Source: Odiellus spinosus
Lineage: Eukaryota; Arthropoda; Arachnida; Opiliones; Phalangiidae
Direction of reading: 5' to 3'
Assembly (NCBI GenBank): GCA_963920705.1
Contig: CAWUCO010000285.1
Span: 1 to 64,000 of the forward strand
Length of the DNA: 64,000 bases
Under the pieces are notes generated by a model that ran no database searches, was not told where the DNA came from, and saw nothing but the letters and a program-made list of their open reading frames with translations. This document shows positions 9,619-61,697 of the stretch, one piece after another; the first letter of the stretch is position 1; the number at the start of each line of letters is the position of its first letter. The position numbers and the translations under genes were made by a program.

Positions 9619-9639
9619 TTCGAGGCTGAAAAAATAATA

Positions 9640-46394: not shown

Positions 46395-46681
46395 ATTTAT
46401 ATCCCCGATAACTAACCCTTTCCAGCTGTTAGCTTTACCAATTAACAAAACCTTTCTAGCTTTTAACTTTATTTTAAATTCACCAACTTTTTCTAGCTTT
46501 TTCTTTTTATTTTTAATTAACTAACCATTAATGTTAGCTTTCACGTTTCTAAAATAACTTATTACCCATCTATCCCTTTATATCTTTTTAGCATGCATGC
46601 TTTTTTTTTCCGTGACTCGTAGTTTAAATAAATCGACACCTCCCAGACTCTATCCTCATCTCCGGCCGCGATAAAACACGC

Positions 46682-46894
46682 ATGTCAGGAATTGGAACAA
46701 AACAAAGACAAGCCTTGTACCTCATAACACCTTCATCATTTAGCGTCGCAGCTGTTGGGCACATTGACTCCCAAGCAAATATTCATGCGTGGTTAAACTT
46801 CAGAGAAATCACAATCTTAGTAAATTGGTACTATAGTCTAATAAAATATACTTCTGTATACACTAGAAATGGATTTCTGTCTATCATAGTATAG
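46682..46894 (+). CDS. Small ORF of uncertain reality
   Basis: A 70-codon ATG frame between the zinc-ribbon gene and a tandem duplication. The first 40 residues look protein-like (MSGIGTKQRQALYL), the rest resembles AT-rich translated spacer. No TATA or splice evidence. Could be chance. Confidence 0.2.
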   Translation: MSGIGTKQRQALYLITPSSFSVAAVGHIDSQANIHAWLNFREITILVNWYYSLIKYTSVYTRNGFLSIIV

Positions 46895-47044
46895 TAAAAT
46901 ATTCTTTTCTCTCACTTGTATTGTACCTATACTAAAATAAACTAATGGCCTTTGTCTATGGTCTATCATAGTATAGTAAAATATTCTTTTCTCTCACTTG
47001 TATTGTACCTATACTAAAATAAACTAATGGCCTTTGTCTATGGT
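46881..47044. repeat. 82-bp tandem duplication
   Basis: CTATCATAGTATAGTAAAAT starts both copies (46881 and 46963) and the two are essentially identical. It ends in TTTGTCTATGGT, of which a partial third copy follows. Non-coding and probably recent. Confidence 0.85.
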
Positions 47045-47381
47045 CTTTCTCTATCCTAGACTAGTAAAATGAACTTTCTCTAGCCTAGAATAGCAAATAA
47101 ACTTATGTTGATCGATTTAAGATCTGTACATTATATACTCTTGATAATACTACAATAAAAATATTTTTCTCACTCATGACTTTTATTTCATGTAATTTAA
47201 ATTTCTATCATTTATAGATCTGCTTTTAAATAACTATAACACTCTTGGTTGACGTACTAATACAACATTGGTCCGGATGAGGTTAGATCTAGAGTTATAT
47301 TCTTAATGCTATAGACAGCTTTAAAGTGATCATAAAACTATAACCGTAGAATATTTTCATAATGCAAAAACTGAAACTTAC

Positions 47382-47397
47382 CAGCAGAAAAAGACAT
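47382..47397 (-). CDS. Candidate shared leader exon for the minus-strand early genes
   Basis: ATG at 47395-47397 begins a 16-base coding exon (MSFSA plus one base) ending at a perfect GTAAGT donor (47376-47381). The phase-1 end fits both downstream acceptors, at 46110 and at 44421, each of which needs one upstream base; in both cases the joined codon is GAT. A TATA box lies about 100 bp upstream. Alternative splicing from one promoter to two acceptors would explain why neither downstream exon has its own good ATG. This is inference from sequence only. Confidence 0.5.
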
Positions 47398-47495
47398 GGT
47401 ACTTCTTGTTATTGTTTTGAGTGACGGTGAAAAAAGAAAACTTTGAGTTGTAAGGTTAATCAAACTTTGGATATCTTTCCAATGATTACGAAAGC

Positions 47496-47503
47496 CTTTT
47501 ATA
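47496..47503 (-). promoter_or_regulatory. TATA box of the minus-strand early unit
   Basis: TATAAAAG on the minus strand lies about 100 bp upstream of the leader ATG. It pairs with a divergent plus-strand TATA at 47731, leaving a ~230-bp shared control region. Confidence 0.55.
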
Positions 47504-47730
47504 CTCATTTTCAGGGTTAAAACTGAAGGAGTTTACCTCGTGGACCAAAAGTGTCTAACATTGAAATAACCAATCAGAAGTTAGATTACACGTGGACCAA
47601 TCAAAAAATTAGAAAAGTTAATTACCTAACTAGTTACTTATATTCTAACTTCGCCCAAATTAACATATTTTAATCGGAATATCGTGAACTTCGCCCATCT
47701 CTGTGATTTTCAGAACCACACCCAGATGAG

Positions 47731-47739
47731 TATATAAAG
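47731..47739 (+). promoter_or_regulatory. TATA box of the plus-strand early unit
   Basis: TATATAAAG lies about 90 bp before ATG 47823 and diverges from the minus-strand TATA at 47496-47503. Confidence 0.55.
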
Positions 47740-47822
47740 ACGAGAAATTCAGGCAAACCTCACAAACGTTTCCAGCTCTCATCTCTTCAAGTCTTCAAAA
47801 CCTTAAAGTGATCCTGTAACTC

Positions 47823-48259
47823 ATGGCTGATAATTCATCATCGAATAAACGCAAGGTAACCGACTTCTTTGATTCTTTACCTGATCTCTCAGATAATTTG
47901 GATTGGAAAGAGGATTAATCTCGCATATTAATACAGTTAAAGAAGGAAGTACTATTCAAAATCAAGGGGGCCTAGTTCCAAAATACGACGTTAAAGAAGA
48001 CTCGGCTTCTTACTCTATAAGCTTACCCGCTCAAGTCGGAGATTACTACATTGATATCCAAATTTACGACTACAACAAGATTAAGAATTTACCAGCCAAT
48101 GAAATTTGGATGGCCGATGGTCGAAGACTACGTTTCTTTGCCCAAGAGAACAGCAAGGAGTGTAAACTGGTAAACTCTATTGTCACCCAAATTGCTAAAG
48201 ATATGAGGCAAAATCCGAATAAGTCCATCAGTCCAGCGAACAAAAGGGTCAAAAAGTAA
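47823..48259 (+). pseudogene. Unknown early protein with an apparent frameshift
   Basis: ATG 47823 opens a 32-codon frame (MADNSSSNKRKVTDFFDSL) ending in TAA at 47918-47920. A second frame, offset by -1 and with no ATG at its start, covers 47903-48259 and reads DYYIDIQIYDYNK, IWMADGRRLRFFAQ and a Lys-rich end. No splice pair I tested restores the frame, so this is either a one-base mutation, a sequencing error or a recoding site. The second frame ends next to a perfect GTAAGT donor (48256-48261); splicing to CACCCAG at 48341-48347 would enter the next gene's frame. The protein family is unknown. The N-terminus looks like a nuclear-localised, acidic/basic leader. Confidence 0.45.
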
Positions 48260-48333
48260 GTCAATGACTTTTCAATTTCTAACCCGGTTTACGACATCGA
48301 AACGAATTACGGCCTTACTCTTAAAAGTCAAAT

Positions 48334-49188
48334 ATGAACCCACCCAGTTTGGTTATAACGGCGTTGAATTCGGTCTTAATTTATGGCCAATCACGTTTAT
48401 TCTTCATGTTAAAATTCAACAAAAACCTCGTCAAAGCCATTTACAAAAAACATAATTTTTGCAAGTACTTAACTTTGTTGGAAAATTTGGAATGGATTGA
48501 AAGGTACCCTGATAATATTACAAGAAGGTACTATTATAATGGGTTCTATATATGGAAAGTTAAATGCTTCAAATCCATTACCATCAATCACCCCTGGATG
48601 GAGGAATATGACTTTTGGCGATTTTTTCCAAGCCCGCACGACGAAATGAGTCGTTTAAATACCTTATCTCTCAAACAATGGAAAGTCGAAGGGTTTCCGA
48701 GTTATATTAACGGTCACTATTTTGAGGATGAGAAACTGGTGGAATACGTTCTGCATAGTCTCAATAAGCAACTTACAGAAAAATATCAATCTCTAAAAAA
48801 TGAATATAACTTTAATGAAGAATATAGTAGTTATCTAGGTGACGGGTGGTGGTATGTCCTCGACAAAGATAGTAAGCGTGAAAATCTCGATGTAAGTGAT
48901 CTCGAAGTAGATTTTATGTCCCAGAGTTTCAAGTTTTCCTACGACTATATGATTTTTACGAGATTCATTAAGGGATACATTTCTTGCATTTTTAATCTCT
49001 TAACTCTACAAGTTCCCGATTGCTCGCATTTATCAGGCATTGTATCGTATACGGAAGAAGAATCAATGAACTTTATATATGAAGTCTTGGAACAAAGAAA
49101 AAAAAGATCATTAAAAAAAAGCCCCTTACGTATATTTCGGGGTTTATCGACTTTGGAGGTTGACATTTTATTGGCCCATCGCCGTTAA
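48334..49188 (+). CDS. Unknown 284-residue protein upstream of PolB
   Basis: An intact frame from ATG 48334 to 49186-49188, ending 38 bp before PolB. It is rich in Trp, Tyr and Phe (WMEEYDFWRFF, LGDGWWYVLD) with a basic C-terminus (RKKRSLKKSPLR). I recognise no domain. The frame can be entered from the upstream ORF through an intron 48256-48347, in which case the first five residues would be replaced and the two ORFs would be one gene. Its position next to PolB suggests a replication or early role. Confidence 0.6.
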   Translation: MNPPSLVITALNSVLIYGQSRLFFMLKFNKNLVKAIYKKHNFCKYLTLLENLEWIERYPDNITRRYYYNGFYIWKVKCFKSITINHPWMEEYDFWRFFPSPHDEMSRLNTLSLKQWKVEGFPSYINGHYFEDEKLVEYVLHSLNKQLTEKYQSLKNEYNFNEEYSSYLGDGWWYVLDKDSKRENLDVSDLEVDFMSQSFKFSYDYMIFTRFIKGYISCIFNLLTLQVPDCSHLSGIVSYTEEESMNFIYEVLEQRKKRSLKKSPLRIFRGLSTLEVDILLAHRR

Positions 49189-49226
49189 AAGCGAGCCGCG
49201 TTTTAACTTTCAAAACATTTCGAGCT

Positions 49227-52200
49227 ATGAGTAGCCAAGAATCGGACAGCGATCAGGATGAACAGCCATTAGATTTAAGTTTAAAAAGTATCCCAAAACA
49301 ATTTTATTCTATTGATAAAATTCTAGCTAAACACTCGCGGAAATACAAATGTCAGCAGGTAGAAGGTAAAGTGCGCTTCAAAAATTTGGATCAAATTAAA
49401 CTGACTGAAATTCACGAAACTTTTGTCAGTATTATAAACTCTTTACTGTACGAATTGTTACGGGACTATCAAGGGTACAATCGAGTACGCTTCTGTATTC
49501 GCTCGGATGAATTGGATAGTCCGATTAACCTAGCCTTTATGAACATAAATGACCTAACAGCCGAAAGAGTTATTCGAGCTATTAGTCACGTAGCGCAATC
49601 GAACCAAAATTTTCATCTTGAGAGTTCACTAACTTTTGACGTGGTTCTATTACAATGTGACGTCCCAGTTGGCGGTCTCCAAAAAGGTTTGAATCGTCGA
49701 AATATTGTCCCTTTTGACACGTTTATTAAAATCAATCCCAATTACATTTATCTGGAAAATGATGATAATTTATGTTTCGGCCGAGCTTTGGCTATTGGCA
49801 TCTTTTTAGCCGATCTCAGGGTCGAGAAAAGAAAGAACAAAGCCTTCAAACCGAGCAAAGACCAGACGTATTACTTTAGGGATCTTAAAGATAGTACGAA
49901 GGATCTACAGAAACGTGAAGCTCTACTCTTATACCATAATGCCAAAATCGAACCAGGGGCCGTTAACTTGAAAAGTATAGAAAAATTCCAACACTTTTTG
50001 GTCGACTACCAAATTGTCATTATTCGATTAGAAAATATTAATGAATTTTATTTTCGCGGTCCCTGGCGTGAAAAACAAATTTTTATGGTCCTTGTAAACG
50101 ATCATGTGCATATATTGAAGGATTATCATTGTCTGAAGGGTGGGTCATCCTATTGTTCCAAATGCTTAAAGATTTTTACACGCTATAGTCGTCTTAAAGA
50201 ACACCATTGTGAGACGCGAGTGAATTGTAGTAGATGTCGTATGTTAAACGTGTTCCATGAGAATTTTAACATTCCGTTACAGAGATGTCGCGACTGTGGG
50301 CGTTACTTTAGAGGTCCAGATTGCTTCAATTTACATTTAGCTAACGGCACGTGTAAAAATTTTAAACGATGCGTAAAATGTGGATTAGAATTGAAAGACA
50401 ATCACGAATGTTCGAGACCCTGTAAAAATTGTCGGAGAAAACACGAAAAAAACCGTTGTTACGTCATGCCTTTGGATACCAAATACGAAAAGAGACGTTA
50501 TTGTTATTTTGACACTGAGACTGTGACCAAAAATAACGAACATGTCCCAGTTCTGTTGGTTAGCGCCATGGAAAATGAAGAAGACGGTGAATACACCTAC
50601 AGTATTTTCCGAGGGTTTGACTGCATTGACCAGTTTATGGCGTACCTCTTCCAAACGAAAGATACCTATATTCAACACGCCACGAAACGTATGAAGAAAA
50701 CGGTTCCAGTCTTTGAAAACCTAACCTTAATCGCTCACAATTTTATGGGCTTTGATAGTTTCTTCATTTTAAACGCCTTATTAAAAATGTCCATTACCCC
50801 TGATGTTGTCTTTAAAGGTAGCAAGCTGCTGGCCATCTTTCTGAACCAACAAAAAATGAAATTCTTGGATTCCTTTAATTTTGTGGCTCAACCTTTAAGA
50901 TCGTTTCCCGCCACGTTTTCATTGGGGGAAAGCAAAAAAGAATTTTTCCCCTATACTTTTCATACTGAAGACACGTTAGATTACGTCGGACCTCTCCCTA
51001 GCAAAGACTATTTTCAACCTGAATACATGAAAGAAAAAGATTACGCCGAGTTTAGCCAGTGGTACGAAGAGAAGAAAAAGCAACCAGTCTATAATTTGAG
51101 AGAAGAATTGGAGTATTACACAATCATGGATGTCAAGGTGTTACAACAAGGAATGGATACCTTTCGACGATTATTCCAGCAAGAAACCGCTTATGACGTT
51201 ATGAACATGAATGCTTTGACCATTGCCGGGGCCTGTACTAACATATTTCTGCACAAGTACTTGGAAGAATTTAGTTTAGGCGTTGTTCCGGCAAACGGAT
51301 ATGGAAACAATGTCAATCAAAGTCAAGCCGCATTAAAGTGGTTGGCTTGGGAAGCGGAGAAACGTAACATCGATATACAAACCACCCTATCGTTGGGAGG
51401 TGAAAAGAAAATTGGTCGTTTTCCGGTTGACGGATATTGCGCTAATCCAGAAATCATTTTTCAATACGACGGGGACTTTTTTCACGGATGCCCGCTTCAT
51501 ACAAAGGGTAGCCAGTGGAATCCTTTGTTACAAGATTCTTTCAAAAACCTGTACGAAAGAACTTTAGATCGGGATGACGCCATCAAAACCGACGCCCCCA
51601 ATGCCGAATACGTCCGAATCTGGAGCTGCGAATGGGAAGAAATGTTGAAGACTAACCAAGAGCTGAAAACATTCTGCAAATCTTTATCTTTTCGCGAACC
51701 AATTGGTCCGAAATCCGCGTTATACGGCGGTCGGACAGAAGGTCTCGTTTTGTACCGAAAGGCTCAACCGGATGAGAAGATCTTATTCTACGATATAATG
51801 AGTCTTTACCCCTTTGTCTGTAAGTACCGTGACTATCCAAAGTTACACCCGGAAATAATTAAAAAAAATTTTAATTACGAAACAAATTTTTATTTTGGAT
51901 TAATGTCTTGCAAGATTTTGGCACCAAAAAACGCCTATATACCAGCTTTGCCTTTTCGAACAAGGGGTAAACTTTTCTTTGCCTTATGTAAGACATGCGT
52001 GGAAAACGATCTTGAGTCTTGCACCCACAGTGATCAAGAAAGGGCTTTCGACGGCTGCTGGACGAGTGTTGAAATATACAATGCCGTGGAATTTGGATAC
52101 GTCATAATGGAAATTTTCGAAGTTCATCACTACGCTGAAAGATACCGCTACGTTAAAGGGGAGGATCCAGGTTTATTTGGAGGCTACATTAATACCTTTT

Positions 52201-53060
52201 TGAAGTTGAAAATTCAAAATTCGGGCTGGCCGAGAGAAGTGAAAACGGAAGCCGAAAAATCGGAATATTTGAAGGCGATCAAGGAGAGGGAAGACATTGA
52301 TATTAAAGCTGAGGATGTGACGATCAACACCCCCCTTCGTCAAGTGGCTAAGCTTTCATCGAATTCGTTATGGGGGAGGAACTGCATGACCCACGATAAG
52401 CCCAAAACTGTCTTTGTCAAAACCTACGAAGCCTACATATCCATTGTCACAGACCCGACTATCGAACTGACTGATATGCGACCTTTCAATGACGAAGTTT
52501 GTATGTTGTCTTACAAGTTCAAGAAAGATTTTTGTCCGACGTACTACAAAGGATCGCCTGTGGTTGGTTGCTTCGTTAGCTCCTATGGTCGCATTGTCTT
52601 GTTTCAAACTTTGCAACAGTTGGGGACCAGGATTTTATATTATGACACTGACTCGGTTTTTTTTGTCCGAAAGAACAATGACGAAACAAATTTTCCACCC
52701 CTCGGTCAATTTATGGGAGACTGGACCGACGAAGTTCCGGGTACTTATATCACTGAATTTGTGTGTTCAGGACCCAAATCGTATAGCTACAAAACAGCCG
52801 ACGGTAAAAGCGTCACGAAAATGAAAGGCATTTCCCTAAATCGAAAAAATGAAGAAATCATCAATTTTGATTCGATAAAAGCGGCCTTGGACAAACCAGA
52901 AACCACGTACTCGGTGGAGATCCCCTTTAACGTGGTGCGCAACAAGAGTCAGGCGAAGCTTTTTCTGGGTAATTTAAAGAAGACTTTTGGTGTCACCTTT
53001 AATAAAAGAATTATCAAAGATGATTACTCGACAGTGCCCTTTGGATATTCGAACGAATAA
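49227..53060 (+). CDS. polB: Protein-primed-type family B DNA polymerase
   Basis: A 1277-residue protein that would replicate the linear genome. Residues 14-18 read PLDLS. A ~250-residue N-terminal region holds DDNLCFGRALAIGI and a later NDHVHIL, an OTU-like pattern, then Cys/His-rich zinc fingers (about 305-415). Exonuclease motifs follow: FDTET (D429, E431), HNFMGFD (D510) and YTIMD (D635). An inserted segment with VDGYC...YDGDFFHGCPLH (about 735-760), usual in Polinton polymerases, resembles an endonuclease fold. Polymerase motifs A (YDIMSLYP, D856), B (KLSSNSLWG, about 1042) and C (YYDTDS, D1140/D1142) and the KMKG motif are all present. The length suits Polinton PolB, and no catalytic residue is missing. 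The next ORF starts one base after its stop. Confidence 0.95.
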   Translation: MSSQESDSDQDEQPLDLSLKSIPKQFYSIDKILAKHSRKYKCQQVEGKVRFKNLDQIKLTEIHETFVSIINSLLYELLRDYQGYNRVRFCIRSDELDSPINLAFMNINDLTAERVIRAISHVAQSNQNFHLESSLTFDVVLLQCDVPVGGLQKGLNRRNIVPFDTFIKINPNYIYLENDDNLCFGRALAIGIFLADLRVEKRKNKAFKPSKDQTYYFRDLKDSTKDLQKREALLLYHNAKIEPGAVNLKSIEKFQHFLVDYQIVIIRLENINEFYFRGPWREKQIFMVLVNDHVHILKDYHCLKGGSSYCSKCLKIFTRYSRLKEHHCETRVNCSRCRMLNVFHENFNIPLQRCRDCGRYFRGPDCFNLHLANGTCKNFKRCVKCGLELKDNHECSRPCKNCRRKHEKNRCYVMPLDTKYEKRRYCYFDTETVTKNNEHVPVLLVSAMENEEDGEYTYSIFRGFDCIDQFMAYLFQTKDTYIQHATKRMKKTVPVFENLTLIAHNFMGFDSFFILNALLKMSITPDVVFKGSKLLAIFLNQQKMKFLDSFNFVAQPLRSFPATFSLGESKKEFFPYTFHTEDTLDYVGPLPSKDYFQPEYMKEKDYAEFSQWYEEKKKQPVYNLREELEYYTIMDVKVLQQGMDTFRRLFQQETAYDVMNMNALTIAGACTNIFLHKYLEEFSLGVVPANGYGNNVNQSQAALKWLAWEAEKRNIDIQTTLSLGGEKKIGRFPVDGYCANPEIIFQYDGDFFHGCPLHTKGSQWNPLLQDSFKNLYERTLDRDDAIKTDAPNAEYVRIWSCEWEEMLKTNQELKTFCKSLSFREPIGPKSALYGGRTEGLVLYRKAQPDEKILFYDIMSLYPFVCKYRDYPKLHPEIIKKNFNYETNFYFGLMSCKILAPKNAYIPALPFRTRGKLFFALCKTCVENDLESCTHSDQERAFDGCWTSVEIYNAVEFGYVIMEIFEVHHYAERYRYVKGEDPGLFGGYINTFLKLKIQNSGWPREVKTEAEKSEYLKAIKEREDIDIKAEDVTINTPLRQVAKLSSNSLWGRNCMTHDKPKTVFVKTYEAYISIVTDPTIELTDMRPFNDEVCMLSYKFKKDFCPTYYKGSPVVGCFVSSYGRIVLFQTLQQLGTRILYYDTDSVFFVRKNNDETNFPPLGQFMGDWTDEVPGTYITEFVCSGPKSYSYKTADGKSVTKMKGISLNRKNEEIINFDSIKAALDKPETTYSVEIPFNVVRNKSQAKLFLGNLKKTFGVTFNKRIIKDDYSTVPFGYSNE

Positions 53061-53061
53061 G

Positions 53062-53304
53062 ATGTATCGTGAAAGTAAAAGATTGGAAACCTTTAACAAT
53101 ATCAATTGGTTGACGGCCTCGAAACATTTGCCACGTCACTCGTATCTAGCTTCGGAACTGGCTGAAGCGGGTTTTTTCTATTTGAACGAAGGTTGTAAGA
53201 CTAGATGTTTCTGTTGTCACAATGAATTTGACTGGAGCGAAAGCAGTAGCGATGAATATCCACTGAACGTACATCAAAGAGAAGCCCCGTTTTGCGCCTT
53301 TTAA
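53062..53304 (+). pseudogene. BIR (IAP-like) ORF with in-frame stop
   Basis: ATG 53062 follows the PolB stop by one base. The 80-residue product is a BIR domain: RLETFNNINW at the start, LAEAGFFYLNEGCKTRCFCC, a Trp in FDW, then H71-X6-C78. The zinc ligands C49, C52, H71 and C78 are all present; the gap before the His is 18 residues, slightly long. BIR proteins of insect viruses and hosts bind caspases or IAP antagonists. After TAA 53302-53304 the same frame is open for 60 more codons to 53487 with a charged helical sequence (AYEEAHQEKLAKEAVEKL), so the gene was probably longer and either has a nonsense mutation or uses readthrough. The short form still contains a whole BIR. Confidence 0.7.
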
Positions 53305-53449
53305 CTCGATCAGGATAAAACTAATTTGAAAGCGTACGAAGAAGCCCATCAAGAAAAATTGGCCAAGGAAGCTGTGGAAAAACTGACCATTTTGATGAAA
53401 AACAAACATATTTTGAGGTTTGTGGAAGCATTACGCGAGGTGGTATTAG

Positions 53450-53644
53450 ATGGATTTGGAAAAGAGTATAAAAAAGGTGACATTTGACGAGATAACGGTT
53501 ATTTGGTATATCCCTGTTGAGGATCGGATCAATTGGAATTTTGTCAATCATTTCCGTTTTAAAAAGAGAATTAAAGATTTTGAGCTTAAATTTGAAAAAT
53601 GTCGTGTCGAATCAAATTTCAAGCCCCAATGCAGCTGTTGGTGA
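53450..53644 (+). CDS. PPP1R15-like (GADD34/CReP) PP1-targeting protein
   Basis: A 64-residue protein from ATG 53450. Residues 8-14 (KKVTFDE) form an RVxF-type PP1-binding motif; 17-26 continue as VIWYIPVEDR; W29 and RFKKRI (36-41) complete the compact core known from PPP1R15 proteins, where the first part binds PP1 and the rest helps select phosphorylated eIF2-alpha. Herpesvirus ICP34.5 and asfarvirus DP71L carry the same core, so a role in restoring translation during a stress or PKR-like response is a reasonable inference. It overlaps the tail of the BIR frame (to 53487) and the first 46 bases of the ATPase gene in other frames. A bare core without a long N-terminal domain is typical of viral versions. 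The match is by eye over about 38 residues. Confidence 0.65.
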   Translation: MDLEKSIKKVTFDEITVIWYIPVEDRINWNFVNHFRFKKRIKDFELKFEKCRVESNFKPQCSCW

Positions 53645-54252
53645 GTGGTCCAACCATGTGTGGTAAAACCACCTGGATATTTAACCTTTTAAAAAACGCC
53701 GAGACTTTAATTGAACCACCACCCAATAGGATTGTGTACTGTTATAAAGAGTACCAACCAAAAGTTAAAGACATGCAGAAAGAAATAAAAAATTTAGAGT
53801 TTATTGAGGGATTGCCCCCAGAAGATCCCAATTTTTGGGATGAAAATTTGCATAATTTTTTAATTATTGATGACTTGGCCTTTACCTGTTATAATAACGC
53901 GCACATTGCTAATATCTATTGTGTTTCCTCGCACCATAAAAATGTGTCAGTGGCTTTGTTAACTCAAAATCTATTTGGCCAAGGAAAAGAAAGCCGAACA
54001 ATTAGCCTTAATTCCTCGTATATCATATGTTTCAAAAATCCTCGTGATGGAAGTCAAATAAACTACTTGAGTAGACAAATATTTCCCCATAACAAAAATC
54101 TCGTGGCCAAAGCTTTTCATCTAGTGACGGCTGCTAATCCATTTTCTTACTTGTGTATAGATTTAAAACAAAATATGCCTGACGAGTTACGTTTAAGAAG
54201 TAACCTATTCCCTCACGAAGGTAATATGATCATTGTTTGCAATGACAAATAA
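53599..54252 (+). CDS. A32-type genome-packaging ATPase
   Basis: A 217-residue FtsK/HerA-superfamily ATPase of the kind that pumps DNA into Polinton and nucleocytoplasmic virus capsids. Walker A is GPTMCGKTT (17-25) and Walker B is FLIIDDL (87-93). The later segment VSVALLTQNLFGQGKESRTI supplies the conserved sensor-like Gln/Asn. The length is normal. The start at 53599 overlaps the PPP1R15-like ORF; a later Met (residue 11) would still leave Walker A whole. AATAAA signals follow at about 54250 and 54269. Confidence 0.92.
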   Translation: MSCRIKFQAPMQLLVSGPTMCGKTTWIFNLLKNAETLIEPPPNRIVYCYKEYQPKVKDMQKEIKNLEFIEGLPPEDPNFWDENLHNFLIIDDLAFTCYNNAHIANIYCVSSHHKNVSVALLTQNLFGQGKESRTISLNSSYIICFKNPRDGSQINYLSRQIFPHNKNLVAKAFHLVTAANPFSYLCIDLKQNMPDELRLRSNLFPHEGNMIIVCNDK

Positions 54253-54306
54253 ATAAGCTTGTTTCTTCAATAAAAGTGTTATTACGGATCTTGACTTTAA
54301 AAGAAC

Positions 54307-54774
54307 ATGGTGAGAAAACGTACCTCAAGACGTTTGCGGAGCAAGCGAAAACCAATATCATTACTGAAAAAAGTTTTATTACGGAACGCTCGGAGGGCTT
54401 TACGGACCCAAACCAGATTTACCAGACAACGGCATCCCCTGAAGAAACACTTGCCTTTCTTACGGAGGTTGGTCAACGTTAGTCAAAAAGGAGGTGGAAA
54501 ACTAGAGCAGTTTTTGAAAAGAGCCAAGGCCCCTCAAATTAAATCAATCAACAAAACGTTTTTTAACTTGTTACGCGGTAACATTGAGATACCTGAGGAA
54601 GCCCGGTTGTACCTAAAACAGCACCGAGGTCTTGTTCGTCAATTAGGCAGTAAACGGGGGACCACCCAAACGAATCGGAAATTGTATATAAAACAAGCTG
54701 GAGGTCTGTTGCCCGGTTTAATCGGTGCTCTGGTACCGACCCTGATTTCAACAATTTCTTCTCTGGTACGATGA
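54307..54774 (+). CDS. Basic core protein, adenovirus pX/mu-like
   Basis: 155 residues. The first 55 are extremely Arg/Lys-rich, suited to DNA condensation. The C-terminus is a hydrophobic Gly/Leu/Ile stretch (GGLLPGLIGALVPTLISTI) like that of adenovirus pX precursors. Two sites fit the adenain rule of a hydrophobic or Gln residue, any residue, then Gly-Gly: QKGG (60-63) and QAGG (130-133). Cleavage there would release the basic part from the hydrophobic tail. The stop overlaps the next ATG (ATGA). The pX assignment rests on composition and layout, not alignment. Confidence 0.65.
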   Translation: MVRKRTSRRLRSKRKPISLLKKVLLRNARRALRTQTRFTRQRHPLKKHLPFLRRLVNVSQKGGGKLEQFLKRAKAPQIKSINKTFFNLLRGNIEIPEEARLYLKQHRGLVRQLGSKRGTTQTNRKLYIKQAGGLLPGLIGALVPTLISTISSLVR

Positions 54775-55478
54775 AGCGAATGGTTTTGTTACCAGAAACG
54801 GCTCTTTCCTCGGAAGCGGGTAAAGAAGCCTCAGCTCTTGATCGTGAAATAAAGAGGATTTTGAAAATGGACATGTCACCCGAAAACAAACTTCGACACT
54901 ATTTGACGACTCTACAACAATTTTTGACCATGAAATGTTTAATAGAACCCCCTTCCGTCAACGTGCAGAACTTTCCAGCCAGTCTGACGGCACCAATATC
55001 AACACCAGCGCCACCATTGACCGGACCGACGCAAATTACACCTACACCGAGCTGGTTTCCGAGTTTTACAACTTCTCCCGCCTTAGCGTTGTCGTCAACT
55101 GGTACGTCTACACCGCTCGCTTCTATATCACGGACTCCTACCCCTCCACCTCAGATATCAGCCGGAGCATCAAGCAGTCAGACCCAGCGTTTGTCACAAG
55201 CGATATCGAATCTGTTGACTTCGCAAGCGGCGTCCTCTTTACCTCCGCTACAAGTTGCTCACCTGCCTCCGAAGCGTAGCGCGAGCAGCGTGGCCAAAAA
55301 ACTATTGGCGAAAAATCGAGAAGAGAAACGAGAGCATCAAAGGTACGCCCGTCGTACGCTTACTTTGAAAGATGCTACTGATATTGCCGATGATGAGGAT
55401 GTGACACCCCGAATGACTATGAGAAAAAATCCCAAAAAGACTAAACAATCGGGTAAAGGAACATTACTTTGGGAGTAA
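54771..55478 (+). CDS. Pro/Ser/Thr-rich protein with basic tail
   Basis: 235 residues, starting MKRMVLLPE, with a helical N-terminal ~55 residues (IKRILKMDMSPENKLRHYL), a long Pro/Ser/Thr-rich middle and a Lys/Arg-rich end. A similar MKR-xxLLPE start with a helix is, from memory, common to a Polinton gene in this position, so it is probably a minor virion or core-associated protein. It starts inside the stop of the pX-like gene. The overlapping 114-codon frame at 54935-55279 is treated as a shadow because its bias is opposite to that of the gene. Confidence 0.65.
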   Translation: MKRMVLLPETALSSEAGKEASALDREIKRILKMDMSPENKLRHYLTTLQQFLTMKCLIEPPSVNVQNFPASLTAPISTPAPPLTGPTQITPTPSWFPSFTTSPALALSSTGTSTPLASISRTPTPPPQISAGASSSQTQRLSQAISNLLTSQAASSLPPLQVAHLPPKRSASSVAKKLLAKNREEKREHQRYARRTLTLKDATDIADDEDVTPRMTMRKNPKKTKQSGKGTLLWE

Positions 55479-55484
55479 TTGACA

Positions 55485-55868
55485 ATGATTTATTCTATCG
55501 CGAAAAATTTTGCTAAACTGGTTTTATGTATAGTAATATTTTTAAACATTACGTTTTGGTTAATTTTATTTTTACCCATTTTGTTACTTTGCCTTTTATA
55601 TACCAAGTTTAAGCATAGGAATTCAATCTGTTGCGAATGTCCGGCATTAGTCCGTCTTTATTTTCACGATTCGCAGTTTCGTCGAGCATATTTTTTTATT
55701 TGGTGTAATTCTTTGCACTTTATTATTTTTCTTGTAAAAGCCCTATTATCATTTAATCTTAAAAAAGTAAAGATGCTGTATTATTCAGCCTTGTTTGTCT
55801 TTACTTCTGTTTTAGGCGCGGGTTACGGTGGTTTTTGTAATTATTGTCATAAACGTATAACAAAGTAA
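55485..55868 (+). CDS. Membrane protein with C-terminal CxxC
   Basis: 127 residues from ATG 55485. It has an N-terminal hydrophobic pair (LCIVIFLNITFWLILFLPIL), a Cys pair (CCECP), a further hydrophobic segment, and ends GFCNYCHKRITK. The C-terminal CxxC layout matches the protein at 61302-61697 (ICRWCDG) and the relic at 21370-21655 (CHYCGR), so these form a small paralogous set. It converges with the protease gene; AATAAA for this strand lies at its stop codon. Confidence 0.65.
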   Translation: MIYSIAKNFAKLVLCIVIFLNITFWLILFLPILLLCLLYTKFKHRNSICCECPALVRLYFHDSQFRRAYFFIWCNSLHFIIFLVKALLSFNLKKVKMLYYSALFVFTSVLGAGYGGFCNYCHKRITK

Positions 55869-55879
55869 TAAAATGTTTT

Positions 55880-56359
55880 TTATTCAAGACAAGATTGATT
55901 TTTATGATTCCATAAATGTATAAGCATATTTAACATAATTATAGCGTCGTTGTACGTTTTGTCATTCTTGTTGTACATATCTTGAAGGATATCTTCGAAA
56001 GAAATTCCGGAGCACAGGTTTGTCAGAACAAAAATGACGTGTCCGCCGCAGGAGAAAGATTTGGTTGGCTGCAGTTGTGTAAGATTGTGTTTCCAGTTTG
56101 AGGCGTATCTCGACAAATCTAATCCGTAAAAATCCGGTTCTTTCCCGTAAGAACAAAAGAAAATGCCGTCATCATTTTTATCCACGTAGACGCCCATCCA
56201 ATGCAATCCACTTTCAGTCGAAGGTTGCGAGTTGATGACGAAACAAAAGGGCGTAAAATCTGGTTTCTTGGGTAGAATATCTTGAGGGTAAACCCCGATA
56301 AAAAATGGTCTAGTACGGGGATCGCAATGCAAAAAGCGTTGTAAATCTTCGGTATTCAT
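55880..56359 (-). CDS. Adenain-like cysteine protease
   Basis: 159 residues. The order of catalytic residues is that of adenovirus protease (family C5): H53 in GLHWMGVYVD, an acidic partner after SYG (KEPDFYG), Q97 in QLQPTK, and C104 in SFSCGGHVIF. It would cleave virion precursors at QxGG-type sites, three of which occur in the core proteins at 54307-54774 and 59600-59983. The length is slightly under that of adenovirus protease, usual for Polintons. Its ATG overlaps the integrase stop (ATGA), so the two are probably co-transcribed. Confidence 0.9.
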   Translation of the reverse strand: MNTEDLQRFLHCDPRTRPFFIGVYPQDILPKKPDFTPFCFVINSQPSTESGLHWMGVYVDKNDDGIFFCSYGKEPDFYGLDLSRYASNWKHNLTQLQPTKSFSCGGHVIFVLTNLCSGISFEDILQDMYNKNDKTYNDAIIMLNMLIHLWNHKNQSCLE

Positions 56360-57288
56360 AATTCGATTTTTTGAAGCTCTGGCTCGTAAAAGCTACCCTT
56401 AATTATTTCATCATTTTCGTCTTGTATGACGTAAGCGGGTGGATCTCGAAATAAGACTTTTTTAATAACAAAAATTTCCGTTGTCCAGTACCCAGTATAA
56501 CCTTTAGCAAAAACCCCTTTATCAGCCGCTATTCTAACCAAATCACCGACTCGTAACTTTGGGACTTTTCTTTTTACGCTTCTATTCATGTATAATCTTT
56601 TCCAGACAAGATGTTCGTTATTTATAGTAACATTTTTGGGTGCCATCCCAATGGTTGAATGGACAGTTTGATTGTAACCATCAACCAATTTTTGTAAATG
56701 TTTCGAGTAATTATAATCCTGGTTCTTGGTCATAAGTCGAAACATTCGGCTTTTTAAAGTTCTATTCCATCGTTCTATGATCCCACATTTTATATTACCA
56801 TAACTAGCGTACCAGAGGATCCCTTTTCGTTTTAAATAAGCTTGAACTTCTTTATTAATAAATTCGGTACCCGCGTCTGTATTCAACTTTAAAGGAGTTC
56901 GTTCTCGAAAAATTGATTCGAGAGCCGGAATAATTTCGTTAGCCGTTTTTTTCTTGAGTGGTTTAGCCCAAGCGTAGCGCGATAGCACGTCAATAACCGT
57001 TAAAATATATCGATATCTATTGTTGAATTTGGCCAACTGGGGTAGATCTACCAGATCCGCTTGGAATATTTCATCTTTAGTATTAACAAAAGTTTTATTT
57101 CTCGGAAACCTTTTTCTTCGATTTCTATGTTTTGTATAGGCTGGTTGAGACCTTGACCAGGTGATGACGTCTCGAGTCTTAACACGAGGAAGAGCTGAAT
57201 GTAGTTTTTTTAACGACCCTAAACTAGCGGGGTGTTGCGGATCGTAATATATCCGGGCCAGATCTTGAGCTACGCGTTTCGTGACCAT
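56356..57288 (-). CDS. Retroviral-like DDE integrase
   Basis: 310 residues from ATG 57288 (the frame is open upstream without ATG). The core is D78 (FQADLVDL), D138 (LNTDAGTEF) and E172 (CGIIERWNR); all three are present. A YRYILTVIDVLSRYAW strand follows the first Asp. The C-terminal part (VGDLVRIAADKG, GYTGYWTTEIF, PAYVIQD) looks like the chromo/SH3-like DNA-binding domain of Polinton integrases. It would insert the element and generate the 6-bp target duplication seen here. It is unrelated in sequence to the integrase-core relic at 16900-18704. Confidence 0.95.
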   Translation of the reverse strand: MVTKRVAQDLARIYYDPQHPASLGSLKKLHSALPRVKTRDVITWSRSQPAYTKHRNRRKRFPRNKTFVNTKDEIFQADLVDLPQLAKFNNRYRYILTVIDVLSRYAWAKPLKKKTANEIIPALESIFRERTPLKLNTDAGTEFINKEVQAYLKRKGILWYASYGNIKCGIIERWNRTLKSRMFRLMTKNQDYNYSKHLQKLVDGYNQTVHSTIGMAPKNVTINNEHLVWKRLYMNRSVKRKVPKLRVGDLVRIAADKGVFAKGYTGYWTTEIFVIKKVLFRDPPAYVIQDENDEIIKGSFYEPELQKIEL

Positions 57289-57344
57289 AGTATGTGTAAT
57301 AATGACATCAAACAATCAAATAGGTTATTTTATATTTTTTATTT

Positions 57345-58037
57345 TTATCCAACACAATCACAAAAAACATGGTTTTTCAAGTCTACAATATCATTAATTA
57401 TTTCCATATACCATTCTTCAAAGTTGTCGGATCCGTATTTGCCAAGAAACTCAAACCTGATATCTTCCCGGTTTAAAGCTTGAACGGCCTCGATCAAATC
57501 CTTCTCACGTCTTTTGTCATATTCTAGACTTCTGTTGTAAGGATAAGGAAATTCCTGGGCTAACTTCCCAGCCTTTTCTTCGAAGAGATAATGTCCAATT
57601 TTGTCGACAATCAGATCTTTCAAACCATTCTTTCTCGTTATTTGAGTTTGAATTTGACGTTCTTCGTCCAGTTCCGGTTTCAGCTGTTTCAGTCTGAGCC
57701 ATGTATCTTTTCTAAAGGTAAATCCGTTCGATGTAGCAAACCAGGAGTCGCAGAATTTTGTGTCATCGGTAGTATATTGACGAATATCAATAAACTTCAT
57801 TCCGCTTCCCGAAATATGTCCTTCGAGTTGAAAGTTCTCCGCTAATCGAGTGTGAAAGCGTGGTAACACGTCTTCGAAGAAATCGTTAACAACGTCTCTT
57901 AAGCTCCAGATATTTTCCCAGACCGGGAGTTGAAGATGAACAACGGATTTGGCGTCATTCCGACGAATAAAGAAACTTTCGCCAGAAGCGCTTATTCCAA
58001 TCGTCTGTTTGTCGGAGAGAAAATGTTCTTGCGGCAT
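57345..58037 (-). CDS. PC4-like putative ssDNA-binding protein
   Basis: 230 residues from ATG 58035-58037 (MPQEHFLSDK); the frame extends upstream only by a non-ATG start. A central segment (KFIDIRQYTTDDTK, then SWFATSNGFTFRKDTWLRLKQL) has the pattern of the PC4/Sub1 single-strand DNA-binding fold: a strand ending in DIR-x-(Y/F), a loop, then a strand and a helix with W. The preceding FFIRRNDAK...LQLPVW may be a second, weaker unit. The C-terminus is helical and charged. A role in protein-primed replication or late transcription is inference. It sits between capsid and integrase genes. Confidence 0.6.
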   Translation of the reverse strand: MPQEHFLSDKQTIGISASGESFFIRRNDAKSVVHLQLPVWENIWSLRDVVNDFFEDVLPRFHTRLAENFQLEGHISGSGMKFIDIRQYTTDDTKFCDSWFATSNGFTFRKDTWLRLKQLKPELDEERQIQTQITRKNGLKDLIVDKIGHYLFEEKAGKLAQEFPYPYNRSLEYDKRREKDLIEAVQALNREDIRFEFLGKYGSDNFEEWYMEIINDIVDLKNHVFCDCVG

Positions 58038-58053
58038 GATAACGCGAGATCCG

Positions 58054-58218
58054 TCAGCGATATGATTCAAAAAGTTCTTTTTAAACTTCTTTTAAGGCTT
58101 TTTTCATCTCTTGGAAATTCCAACAGGATCGAACAAATCCGACTTCTCTAAGATTGTTTCGAACTGTCACCACCAGGTTTAGTTCTTTTCGTTGAGAGAA
58201 GAAAACGTACTCGTCCAT
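58054..58218 (-). CDS. Possible 54-residue protein
   Basis: ATG 58216-58218 lies 5 bp after the major capsid stop and the frame ends just upstream of the PC4-like ATG, filling the gap between them. The product starts MDEYVFFSQRKELNLVVTV and ends basic and helical. The tight packing supports it; no family is known. Confidence 0.35.
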
Positions 58219-58222
58219 CCTC

Positions 58223-59563
58223 TTACTCTAACTTGTAAAGAATGGTTCGATCTTTCGTTATCAACATTTGGTTCTCAAACTCGCCGTAGACGATAACTGT
58301 GACGGCCGAGCTTAACGGGTTTTTAAATTTCATCGTTAAGCGTAAACTACCGTGTTTTTCCAAAGAAAAATGTTCGCCACTAGCTCCCTCTTCAGCTGTT
58401 AAATCCAACGCCAGTAAACAATTGCCCTGGGGGTATTCCTCGTACGAGATATCATTACCTTTATTTTTACCGTAAAAATCTAAAGCCGTGAACAGGGATT
58501 GGTATTCGCGACAATAGCGTTTTTCAGCAAAATTTGGTTGAAAAGGTTGATCGGGATAATTTTTATTTCCAACCGTAACGGCTAAATACGTCAAATCCAA
58601 GTGCTCGAAATTAAAAGGATTTTCAGTTAAATCTCCGTTGAAGGCTGATGTCTTTACGAAAGCAATTATAATTCTATTTGGGATTCTACCCAAGAAGACA
58701 TTTTCTTTTGTCGTGTCAGTGTTACCTCTTTCTATCCCAAAGTACTTTGCCACAGTCTGATTAATCGGGTAGACGCAGGGTGTTTTTTCCAAAACCATGG
58801 CGTGGGCTAACATTAAGTCTGGGTTTAACTTAATTTTCCTAACGTAGAGCGAAGCATCGCTGATGACGAATCTATATTGAGTGGCTGCTGGGGGCAGCGC
58901 GGGCGGGGCTGGAAGTGGTTCTCGCGATATAATGGGAAACGACATTCCTGAACTAATAAATTTAAATTTTACATCTACATTGTTTAAGAGGAATTTATTC
59001 ATTTTACAAATATCCAGATGGAGTCTCCCTATCATTTCACATACTTGAGATGGATCAACGCGCTCTTTTCTCAGTTTCATTCCTTGATTAGACGCGTCAA
59101 AAATATCCTCGGGTTTTATCTTGGTATCTTTGTAAAACATTTCCAAAGCTAATTGCGTCTCTTTGGCATCTTTCCCGTAATTTAACAATGTTTCGAAATA
59201 AGCGATATACGGAGCTAAATTATTAACGGTTTGTACTAGCGTATCATTTAACATTGCTTCTATTTGAGAAAATAAAGCCCATAAAAGTAAATTCACAGGT
59301 CCAACTGTGTCTACCGCCGCCGTCATATCTTCCCAAGCATTATTCGTCGTGTTTTTTTTTAATAATTTAACGTTAAGCTTTAATCTGGTTTTTGATAAAT
59401 CGACATAGTGCTCCGGAGTACCGGGGACGAAAAATTCGATTGGTCCTCCATCCGTAATTGAATTGACGGGTTTTAATTCAATATCATTACTAGCCAAAAT
59501 ATTATAATTACTAACAGGTTTGACGAACAAGTCGGCTTCAGACATCATACCTTCAGACCCCAT
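58223..59563 (-). CDS. Major capsid protein (double jelly-roll)
   Basis: 446 residues. Landmarks shared with Polinton/adintovirus capsids are the N-terminal ELKPVNSITDGGPIEFFVPG, YVDLSKTRLKLNV, VGPVNLLLWALFSQIE, then YIAYFETLLNYGKDAKETQL with FYKDT. They match the hexon-like protein annotated in many animal genomes as an F54H12.2-type uncharacterised protein. It forms the icosahedral shell as trimers. A late-type TATA (TATAAATA, 59589-59596) lies 26 bp upstream of ATG 59563. Nothing is broken. Confidence 0.92.
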   Translation of the reverse strand: MGSEGMMSEADLFVKPVSNYNILASNDIELKPVNSITDGGPIEFFVPGTPEHYVDLSKTRLKLNVKLLKKNTTNNAWEDMTAAVDTVGPVNLLLWALFSQIEAMLNDTLVQTVNNLAPYIAYFETLLNYGKDAKETQLALEMFYKDTKIKPEDIFDASNQGMKLRKERVDPSQVCEMIGRLHLDICKMNKFLLNNVDVKFKFISSGMSFPIISREPLPAPPALPPAATQYRFVISDASLYVRKIKLNPDLMLAHAMVLEKTPCVYPINQTVAKYFGIERGNTDTTKENVFLGRIPNRIIIAFVKTSAFNGDLTENPFNFEHLDLTYLAVTVGNKNYPDQPFQPNFAEKRYCREYQSLFTALDFYGKNKGNDISYEEYPQGNCLLALDLTAEEGASGEHFSLEKHGSLRLTMKFKNPLSSAVTVIVYGEFENQMLITKDRTILYKLE

Positions 59564-59588
59564 CTTGTCGCGTTAGATAAGATCCGGC

Positions 59589-59596
59589 TATTTATA
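59589..59596 (-). promoter_or_regulatory. TATA box of the major capsid gene
   Basis: TATAAATA on the minus strand, just upstream of the capsid ATG and between it and the stop of the upstream core-protein gene. Confidence 0.5.
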
Positions 59597-59599
59597 TCC

Positions 59600-59983
59600 C
59601 TAGGATAAAAAATCGGTTTTCTTTCTTCGTTTTACTTTACGACTCTTTAGACTTTTTCTTTTACGTTTACCAGTGCCGTATTGCGAATTGAGAACTTTGT
59701 CACCAGCTGTGTGTAATAGATTAGACCCAGCAATTTTAATATTCCTTTTTAAAGCTGATTTTGGATCTTGCCCCGCTGAAATATCACCTATCCATCGACT
59801 GCCAACACCAATCGCTTCCCGACCTAAGGCCTTGGCCGCTGGCTTTATAATTGGGGTAATGAATCGAACTAGACTCTTAAAAATTGAACCTAACCCGTTA
59901 CCGCGTTGAAAAACGGGACCTCGGAAGCCTCCTCCTCCAGCTTGCTGCAGGTAATAGTAATAATACCTATTTCGCGACGCCAT
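59600..59983 (-). CDS. Minor virion/core protein with QAGG site
   Basis: 127 residues: a Tyr-rich start (RNRYYYYYLQQAGGGGFRGP), a Gly/amphipathic segment (GLGSIFKSLVRFITPIIKPA, then AKALGREAIGVG), a helical part and a strongly basic tail (GKRKRKSLKSRKVKRRKK). QAGG at 14-17 fits adenain cleavage. The layout, with an amphipathic helix near the N-terminus exposed after cleavage, recalls adenovirus pVI, and the basic tail recalls core proteins. It lies between the penton-like and major capsid genes, as in other adintoviruses. Confidence 0.7.
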   Translation of the reverse strand: MASRNRYYYYYLQQAGGGGFRGPVFQRGNGLGSIFKSLVRFITPIIKPAAKALGREAIGVGSRWIGDISAGQDPKSALKRNIKIAGSNLLHTAGDKVLNSQYGTGKRKRKSLKSRKVKRRKKTDFLS

Positions 59984-59987
59984 TTTT

Positions 59988-61250
59988 TTATCTTCGTCTA
60001 AAATGTAATGTGGTCACTGTTTTTCCGAGTTTGAAAGGAATTTTACTGCCCGAATCAGTGGCAATTTCTATATCAACCACGTTAAAATTCGGTGTTCTGA
60101 CGGGGTAATAATTAATCGGGTTAAACGTTAACTCGTAGGGGGTATTATACTTGTTGTTCTCTGGCCTGGGTATTGTACGTAATAGACCTCCCCAAGCGTC
60201 ACCTATAACCTGAGGGTATATGAGACTGGTATAAACGAATAAACTCTGGACACCTCTATTTATATCAGCGATATGTTCACCATGGCTCTTGTGCGTTAAC
60301 CCTTTCTCAAGTTGTTTGGTATCAAAACCCAGCATAAGACCTAAACCAGGATTGGATTTGGGAAAGCGAATGGTAAAACTGTCTCGCAAATTTTTTTGTT
60401 GATCCGTGAGAAGATAATCGGGTTTTGCTTCATCAATTAACCCTAGACCACAAAGTAGCGTTACCGTCCCATTGTTATTTTGCTCAAAATCAAAATAAGG
60501 CCTCATTCTCGGGGGTAAACACTCTCTCATTCCTTTTAACACCTTCTCTATAGTTTCGTACGTACCGTGTGGTAATTGATAAGTTTTAGTTTGATATAAA
60601 AGATTTTCGACTCGTTCGTTACCCGTTAATTTTATGGTCTTGTCTCTTTTGACCATCTGCCGAACGTAAAAAGGGGGATATTTGGAGGTGTCGAGTTTGA
60701 TCCTGTTCTGGTCTAAAGCTCGTGTTCCAACAATGGTGGTCCCCGTTATCCATTTTTCACAATCCCGCGCTTCTAAACCTAATAATTCGCAATACATTCT
60801 GGGAAATTTAACGAAGGTTTCACCATTGGGATCTTTAAATTCAATAAGAAAACGTTCCTGACCGTTGACGATCCCGATTTGAAATTCTAACTTGTCTTTT
60901 ACTTGTTGTTGAGTAATAGACGCCTGCATCTGATTAATAATTTTATGATAAATACTTTCATTCGTATTTTTAATTATTGTACTTTTATCGTTTACGGTTC
61001 CCTGACCCGTTTCGTATTTTAAATCTAAATCAACCATTCTAACGACAAAAGTATCGAAGAAGTCGGTAATATTGTCCCATTTCGAAGGCATACTAATGCC
61101 CGATAAACCGACTTCCCAATGTCCTTCAGATAAATCAAATGACGTGGGTAATTGCGTCGTGTAACTGGTTTTTGTGTTTTTTGGGTATTGAGTCATGGAG
61201 GCGTTACTCGGGAGAGTCAAGTAGAACGAATCGTAGATGGGAGCGAGCAT
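59988..61250 (-). CDS. Minor capsid (penton-like) protein
   Basis: 420 residues from ATG 61248-61250 (MLAPIYDSFYLTLPSNAS). Family landmarks are F-x-L-x-LPSNAS near the start, YTTQLPTSFDLSEGHWEVGL with SMPSKW, and, near the end, LFVYTSLIYPQVIGDAWGGL with LLRTIP and YYPV. In Polintons this single-jelly-roll protein caps the five-fold vertices. The length is normal and the frame intact. A TATA-like GATAAATAAG lies about 50 bp upstream (61301-61310). Confidence 0.88.
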   Translation of the reverse strand: MLAPIYDSFYLTLPSNASMTQYPKNTKTSYTTQLPTSFDLSEGHWEVGLSGISMPSKWDNITDFFDTFVVRMVDLDLKYETGQGTVNDKSTIIKNTNESIYHKIINQMQASITQQQVKDKLEFQIGIVNGQERFLIEFKDPNGETFVKFPRMYCELLGLEARDCEKWITGTTIVGTRALDQNRIKLDTSKYPPFYVRQMVKRDKTIKLTGNERVENLLYQTKTYQLPHGTYETIEKVLKGMRECLPPRMRPYFDFEQNNNGTVTLLCGLGLIDEAKPDYLLTDQQKNLRDSFTIRFPKSNPGLGLMLGFDTKQLEKGLTHKSHGEHIADINRGVQSLFVYTSLIYPQVIGDAWGGLLRTIPRPENNKYNTPYELTFNPINYYPVRTPNFNVVDIEIATDSGSKIPFKLGKTVTTLHFRRR

Positions 61251-61300
61251 CGTCAAGCAGAGTTGAAGAATAACAATGAAGATGAAACAAGCTGGTCAGA

Positions 61301-61310
61301 CTTATTTATC
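61301..61310 (-). promoter_or_regulatory. TATA-like element of the penton gene
   Basis: GATAAATAAG on the minus strand, overlapping the stop codon of the upstream membrane-protein gene. Confidence 0.4.
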
Positions 61311-61697
61311 CTTCCTTTTGAGAGGAATTAAGCCATCGCACCAGCGGCATATATGGTTTAAAGGTTTCAACTCGTAGATCTCCCAATAATACGGTAAAAT
61401 AAAGATTAGCCCAAGAATATCGTACCATGGGGCCAGAACGAATCGGGAATTTCGAGTAATAATTGAACGAATAAGACCAATGGGGACCGTGATCGGAGTC
61501 AAGAGGACTCTAAGCCAGTATTTACATTGGCGAAGAGTGTAAGAATCGTGAAAGAACCAACGCTTCCAGATACAGCATTGACATTTCTGTAATTGAACGC
61601 GAGCACTTTCCTTCGTTACCCGTAAATCCATTTTAAGTTGATTTAGGATCGAGTCTTTTATATGATATCCTTCTCCCCTTGTGAGTGAATGAGTCAT
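61302..61697 (-). CDS. Membrane protein with Cys motifs, right end
   Basis: 131 residues from ATG 61695-61697, the first gene inside the right TIR. After a polar N-terminus comes KCQCCIWKRWFFHDSY, a hydrophobic stretch starting LLTPITVPIGLI, a second (ILGLIFILPYYW) and the end ICRWCDGLIPLKRKDK. The relic at 21370-21655 has the same order. The C-terminal CxxC also occurs in the protein at 55485-55868. A TATA box (GATATAAAAG, 61731-61740) lies 34 bp upstream. The function is unknown; conservation in a second element shows it is a genuine gene. Confidence 0.7.
   Translation of the reverse strand: MTHSLTRGEGYHIKDSILNQLKMDLRVTKESARVQLQKCQCCIWKRWFFHDSYTLRQCKYWLRVLLTPITVPIGLIRSIITRNSRFVLAPWYDILGLIFILPYYWEIYELKPLNHICRWCDGLIPLKRKDK

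Follow-up and report, generated by a model that had tools for sequence, protein, structure and literature searches.

The cellular proteins PPP1R15A (GADD34) and PPP1R15B (CReP) contain a part that lets translation resume once stress has shut it down. Mammalian PPP1R15 proteins, which are over 600 amino acids long according to a passage in PMC4394352, have relatives in several groups of large DNA viruses. DP71L of African swine fever virus and ICP34.5 of herpes simplex virus are described in sections of PMC5346070 as viral PPP1R15 proteins that bring protein phosphatase 1 (PP1) to eIF2-alpha, and the short form of DP71L has 70 to 72 amino acids (PMC5346070). Canarypox 231, an avipox relative, lowered PKR-driven eIF2-alpha phosphorylation in yeast (excerpt in PMC8301327). 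PPP1R15-type genes captured by an invertebrate DNA virus are also described in baculoviruses, coGV-gp036 being an example (passages in PMC4394352 and PMC5704228). A preliminary description of the locus presented here stated that large DNA viruses reverse eIF2-alpha phosphorylation with such proteins. This agrees with the relevant parts of PMC5346070 and PMC8301327, in which the proteins tested undo translational shut-off.

As described in part of PMC8500838, G-actin orders the helix that follows in PPP1R15, and the other face of this helix takes the eIF2-alpha beta-barrel. In PPP1R15A, a double change of Phe592 and Arg595 had a nearly 50-fold cost, a change of Arg591 blocked dephosphorylation, and Arg612 "proved less important" (PMC8500838, same part). 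A motif for eIF2-alpha, Rx[GNL]x(1-2)Wxxx[ARLV]x[DN][RG]xRFxx[RLVK][IVC], comes from Rojas et al. 2015, as quoted in a passage of PMC5346070.

The locus considered here lies in a stretch of 64,000 nucleotides from Odiellus spinosus, which we call the window. It is a 64-codon ORF inside a Polinton, and its similarity to PPP1R15 cores is better than chance. The ORF appears to be a divergent PPP1R15-like gene whose product is a probable recruiter of PP1, with eIF2-alpha as the probable target.

The host element

The element occupies positions 42179 to 62117 of the window (19,939 bp) and is an adintovirus-like Polinton/Maverick, recognised by its inverted terminal repeats, its target duplication and a gene set in common with other Polintons. 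The inverted repeats consist of three pieces between 42178-42543 and 61786-62118, and the 6-bp target duplication CACCCG flanks the element at 42173-42178 and 62118-62123.

On the forward strand, a type B DNA polymerase gene (polB; 1277 amino acids, 49227-53060; Pfam DNA_pol_B_2, E 6.3e-44), which we presume from other Polintons to be protein-primed, is followed by a BIR-domain ORF (53020-53304; Pfam BIR, 43.4 bits) and a packaging ATPase ORF (53599-54252). The first ATG of the BIR ORF is inside the end of polB, and a further in-frame ATG (53062) comes right after the polB stop. The ATPase matches Pfam AAA_14, Pox_A32, Adeno_IVa2 and others, all below the cut-off. It has 430 database homologues at E<=0.001, the closest of which (proteins P0002, P0003 and P0004) are 80, 74 and 55% identical to it. 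The reverse strand carries an rve-type integrase (56356-57288; Pfam rve, 44.2 bits) and a major-capsid-type protein (58223-59563). The latter has no Pfam match at E<=0.01 and is 37% identical over 443 amino acids (E 1.8e-89) to an ORF of L002, a Polinton in a tubeworm-symbiont assembly. Our use of the names "capsid" for this ORF and "protease" for the ORF at 55883-56359 is an assumption taken from general knowledge of Polinton gene content; each of the two has matches in three of the five other Polinton loci discussed below. The frames of polB, integrase, ATPase and the capsid-type protein are all open. With its inverted ends, 6-bp duplication, polB, rve integrase, A32-like ATPase and presumed protease and capsid genes, the element is a genuine Polinton, as the preliminary description had proposed.

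A 284-amino-acid ORF at 48334-49188, upstream of polB, has a sole Pfam match of E 0.037, below the cut-off. The BIR ORF stops at an in-frame TAA (53302-53304), behind which the frame stays open as far as a TGA (53487-53489). Over this stretch it scores higher as coding sequence (16.8 bits) than the other five frames, and the stretch has no Pfam match at E<=0.01. The BIR gene copy may be broken, or the BIR protein may merely be short. No second copy of the element was detected in the window, as blastn with 49000-55000 gives nothing at E<=1e-3 beyond the element itself.

Elsewhere in the window, a second set of inverted repeats, with three matching pieces about 20 kb apart (10-363 and 19648-19994), encloses ORFs at 8221-9708 and 17885-18457, the latter resembling an integrase core by eye. 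The set may mark a further large mobile element, with its left end close to the edge of the window. In 12089-13180, both strands have long open frames in which short units (IIGKPTEI / NNIPNDFCRFP) recur; these are probably a minisatellite rather than genes.

A small ORF with landmarks of the PPP1R15 core

The ORF lies at 53450-53644 on the forward strand, between the BIR-domain and ATPase ORFs, and runs from ATG to TGA. Its position, translation and neighbours are as originally reported. Because a TAG (53447-53449) immediately precedes the ATG on the 5' side, 64 amino acids is the longest possible reading. The start of the ATPase ORF overlaps the last 46 nucleotides. Among the forward ORFs of the compact row of genes, only this one covers 53490-53598, and most of the core, in residues 15 to 50, is therefore encoded outside the others. 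An antisense ORF at 53321-53551 overlaps part of the ORF.

Like the PPP1R15 core, the predicted protein has an RVxF motif at its start, namely KVTF (residues 9-12; 53474-53485), an RVxF-type PP1-docking motif that also occurs in this form in human PPP1R15B. An aromatic-x-aliphatic triplet, W19-Y20-I21 (53504-53512), is located at +9/+11 from V10 and resembles Tyr650/Ile652 of PPP1R15B (PMC4394352, in the passage on these residues). The segment from E24-D25-R26 to W29 (53519-53536) holds a candidate for the arginine of the Arg pocket, Arg26, together with a Trp, as do Arg658 and Trp662 of PPP1R15B. RFKKRI (residues 36-41; 53555-53572) aligns with Arg591 to Ile596 of PPP1R15A. The preliminary description had listed KVTF, VEDR (residues 23-26), Trp29 and RFKKRI, and all four are present. 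A further shared feature, absent from that list, is C51 (53600-53602), a Cys at Phe+14 that aligns with a Cys in human PPP1R15A and PPP1R15B and in the avipox protein.

Similarity scores and controls

Searches that started from the ORF alone returned little. Pfam gave no family at E<=10, including PF10488 (PP1c_bdg), which in the same test matched four of four fetched PPP1R15 members (SWPV1-205 with 72.5 bits); the profile match that had been suggested as a check on the idea is therefore negative for Pfam. A protein-database search with the ORF alone found no protein. In the PDB, a NADH dehydrogenase subunit was matched with E 0.6, which we set aside as chance, and weak PHROG and NCBIfam matches to unrelated families (11.6-15.4 bits) were likewise not used as evidence.

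Family members were instead recruited by a protein-database search whose query aligned the ORF with the cores of human PPP1R15B and PPP1R15A. All 21 proteins listed by this search carry Pfam PF10488. With the ORF itself among the query rows, recruitment was checked by counting shared five-letter words, with a limit of three. The avipox protein P0135 had no need of the ORF for its recruitment, since it has nine such words in common with human PPP1R15B. Proteins P0137-P0141 were excluded from three profiles because words of the ORF may have aided their recruitment, and P0142, a 35-amino-acid PDB fragment, was excluded from all.

A 22-row profile, made of 20 recruited proteins and the two human cores but not the ORF itself, scores the ORF at 13.0 bits, a value reached by none of 20,000 shuffles (best 11.2). 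With the PPP1R15-core profile the ORF ranks first among the 1,119 ORFs of the window (stop-to-stop, at least 30 amino acids). A 17-row profile without P0137-P0141 gives 12.2 bits and an 11-row profile of PPP1R15B-type and avipox sequences gives 18.3 bits, neither being reached in 20,000 shuffles. When both the avipox row and P0137-P0141 are removed, the score falls to 7.5 bits; 6 of 20,000 shuffles get as high (best 10.9), but it is still the highest among window ORFs. With hhalign the probability is 74% and E 2.8e-5.

Among single sequences, the best of the 20 fetched members is SWPV1-205 of shearwaterpox virus, which matches the ORF in phmmer with 24.2 bits (E 1.8e-9 for one comparison). The best of 20,000 shuffles has 13.0 bits and the next of the 1,119 window ORFs has 6.3. 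A tblastn search of the 64-kb window with the same protein finds 53477-53614 at 39% identity over 49 columns (E 7e-5), and the next match has E 6.7. When the best score over all 22 family queries is taken, 5,000 shuffles remain at or below 12.0 bits and the next window ORF has 9.6. Each of the other 21 queries gives at most 9.9 bits to the ORF, which makes a viral PPP1R15B-type sequence its clearest relative; the 7.5 bits left when the avipox row and the five doubtful rows are taken out likewise mean that the case leans on one viral relative. Pairwise alignments are weaker: 12 of 20,000 shuffles score at least as high as the ORF against human PPP1R15B, and 970 of 20,000 against PPP1R15A, the latter being not distinct from chance. 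The proposed resemblance to the PPP1R15 core is thus supported by shuffles, window-wide controls and a viral PPP1R15 protein, and the scores make homology of the ORF to PPP1R15 probable.

Conserved and lost positions

Residue positions from passages of PMC4394352 (PPP1R15B) and PMC8500838 (PPP1R15A) were mapped onto the ORF by alignment. Val641/Phe643 of PPP1R15B fall on V10/F12, Tyr650/Ile652 on W19/I21, Trp662 on W29, and Arg658, the residue of the arginine pocket, on R26, which is one residue nearer. Arg591, Phe592, Arg594, Arg595 and Ile596 of PPP1R15A correspond to R36, F37, K39, R40 and I41, and Lys at the position of residue 39 is also found in PPP1R15B. By alignment only, then, the key contacts that PMC8500838 reports in the same passages for actin (Phe592, Arg595) and for eIF2-alpha (Arg591, Arg594) have counterparts in Phe37 and Arg40, and in Arg36 and Lys39. 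No clear counterpart exists for Arg587 and Asp588, two of the four eIF2-alpha contacts. Nor was one recognised after C51 for the C-terminal amphipathic helix with Arg612, which is one of the three tested actin contacts.

Five of the 12 positions that are invariant in a 12-row family alignment are missing from the ORF, namely the G and P before the Trp and the E, A and D after it. The distance from Trp to Phe is eight residues, compared with ten in 22 of 22 family rows, and that from Arg to Trp is three instead of four. Two residues fewer would rotate a helix by more than half a turn. The Phe-to-Arg distance (14) and the aromatic-x-aliphatic placement (+9/+11 from the Val) match the avipox protein. 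The preliminary description had ascribed both the order and the spacing of the PPP1R15 core to the ORF: the order is borne out, as are these last two spacings, but the Arg-to-Trp and Trp-to-Phe distances differ.

Compared by eye with the eIF2-alpha motif quoted in the passage of PMC5346070, the stretch R-I-N-W-N-F-V-N-H-F-R-F-K-K-R-I does not fit as a whole. It lacks at least one residue ahead of the W and two more from there to RF. Its R-x-N, W and RFxxRI parts agree with the motif, which it matches at both ends but not in the middle. Because the ORF stays below the Pfam cut-off and lacks the full motif and the C-terminal helix, we class it as PPP1R15-like and not as a proven member of the family.

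Other Polintons

A scan of a prokaryote collection detected five Polinton loci (L001-L005) in bacterial bins, two of them from one tubeworm-symbiont assembly. The bins were those of a tubeworm symbiont, Photobacterium, Rhodocyclaceae and Ignavibacteria MAGs, and the loci are most likely contaminating DNA of other organisms. Several are short or partial. The backbone that they have in common with our element includes the ATPase in all five, polB in two, the integrase in two and the capsid-type gene in three. DNA before the ATPase is present in four of them; it amounts to about 300 bases in L001, and L005 begins inside the ATPase.

The loci differ from our element in that no PPP1R15-like ORF was found before the ATPase. 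Among their 547 ORFs the best score over the 22 family queries is 8.9 bits, and a loose KVxF...W...RF pattern occurs in one antisense ORF of L004, with a low score and no profile support. L001 and L002 have a small ORF with a hydrophobic stretch upstream of the ATPase. Conservation in related elements had been put forward as another check, and its outcome is negative in the four loci with DNA at that place, all of them distant elements. As the ATPases of L001-L005 are 37-42% identical to that of our element, all this absence shows is that the ORF does not belong to the core genes. Scans of IMG/VR found no relative of the element, and a search of phage records found nothing useful.

Possible function

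In the reading that we propose, a Polinton has acquired a divergent PPP1R15-like gene in stripped-down form, the ORF, and its product would dock PP1, actin and eIF2-alpha so that translation continues; we give this reading a probability of roughly 0.6. The N-terminal half (KVTF, W-x-I, Arg26 and Trp29) would dock the host PP1 along the GADD34/CReP groove. The helix around RFKKRI would have two binding faces, one for G-actin (Phe37, Arg40) and one for the beta-barrel of eIF2-alpha (Arg36, Lys39). PP1 would take the phosphate off Ser51 of eIF2-alpha, and translation would go on during infection or expression of the element. Since the docking half is retained in the ORF, as are the helix contacts that carry most weight in the mutants described in part of PMC8500838, a minimal eIF2-alpha phosphatase adaptor is its likeliest reading. 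That the ORF is expressed, that its product binds PP1 and actin, that eIF2-alpha is the substrate and that the element benefits are what we infer from the sequence. The residues are suggestive of translation rescue, and a full eIF2-alpha function is somewhat favoured. Of the interpretation first offered, homology and the Polinton host stand; a Pfam match, the complete Rx-G-P-W...D motif that defines the family and an equivalent in the four distant loci do not.

The shortened spacer makes a PP1-binding protein without preference for eIF2-alpha a serious rival. Such a protein would hold PP1 by KVTF, Arg and Trp and, with its Trp-to-RF distance reduced, redirect or sequester the phosphatase. The PP1-docking half is indeed the one better kept in spacing, and G-P, E, A, D and a counterpart of Arg587 are missing. 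Phactr1 also uses the Trp pocket on PP1 (a passage in PMC8500838), and PP1-binding mutants of DP71L may sequester PP1 and so lower eIF2-alpha dephosphorylation, as the authors suggest in a section of PMC5346070. However, RFKKRI and the Cys at Phe+14 are outside the PP1 half and match PPP1R15, which a generic binder would not need, and we consider this reading unlikely. The lost residues and the short spacer would also be accounted for if a PPP1R15-type gene had once worked and were now degenerating in a dead element copy, and this copy may be decaying, as the adjacent BIR frame has an in-frame TAA with an open, coding-like frame beyond it. Against this, the 64 codons hold no stop, the polB (1277 amino acids), integrase, ATPase and capsid-type ORFs are open, and the lost residues are clustered in one stretch while much of the remainder is kept; decay, too, is an improbable account.

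An open stretch between two genes might also look like a PPP1R15 core by accident. An open run of 64 codons has about a 1% chance per start at the local composition, and codon use is neutral as a coding signal (3.5 bits). Pfam is silent, the library matches at 11.6-15.4 bits go to unrelated families too, and the loose pattern is found once among the 547 ORFs of the other loci. The ORF was, moreover, picked by a reader from many ORFs, with thousands of possible families to compare. Yet 24.2 bits to a real viral PPP1R15 protein stand against at most 13.0 in 20,000 shuffles, the ORF tops the 1,119 ORFs of the window and exceeds the 547 of five other loci, and several separate landmarks occur in the correct order. 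On the shuffle and window-ORF controls we reject chance as the main explanation and regard it as very unlikely.

Significance

A literature search found no report of a PPP1R15 gene in a Polinton or adintovirus; its strict pairing covered "polinton" and "gadd34", and wider searches with Polinton and PPP1R15-type terms gave none that holds both kinds of term among the matches listed. PPP1R15-type words are absent from the Polinton/adintovirus preprints PMC11071296 and PMC11071308 and from the paper PMC8363768. One paper containing both "Polinton" and "protein phosphatase 1" was dismissed because the two passages are unrelated.

If the proposed eIF2-alpha phosphatase adaptor is real, Polintons would behave like infecting viruses under translational defence, and virus-like transposons would both face and answer translational shut-off by the host. 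It would add one more gene common to Polinton-like and large DNA viruses. As a 64-residue variant, it would also reveal, by the residues it lacks, what a PPP1R15 core can do without.

Comparison with known PPP1R15 systems

The human proteins PPP1R15A and PPP1R15B share with the ORF KVTF (in PPP1R15B), the aromatic-x-aliphatic pair, the Arg, the Trp, R-F-x-(K/R)-R-I and the Cys. They differ from it in having ten residues instead of eight between Trp and Phe, in keeping G-P-W-E...A-x-D, and in possessing Arg612 and the C-terminal amphipathic helix. Short DP71L, as described in part of PMC5346070, is similar to the Polinton ORF in length and belongs to another virus group, the likeness being one of size and description. 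The baculovirus PPP1R15 genes, likened to the ORF by their description in passages of PMC4394352 and PMC5704228, have a large DNA virus and not a Polinton as host. Canarypox 231, an avipoxvirus PPP1R15 homologue, enters the comparison through the literature alone (the excerpt in PMC8301327).

The closest resemblance is to shearwaterpox SWPV1-205, a protein of 100 amino acids with an N-terminal extension, the sequence RKGPWEEFARD and a longer C-terminal part, all of which the Polinton ORF lacks. Both are short proteins of viral type that have the same spacing from V-x-F to EDR (14 residues from F to R), Y-x-P-x-EDR, the W, RFKKRI and the Cys at Phe+14. We see about even odds that a gene for recruiting an eIF2-alpha phosphatase, related to the avipoxvirus one and shortened in its actin/substrate helix, is carried by Polintons. 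If so, the Polinton ORF may be the smallest form of this machinery so far observed.
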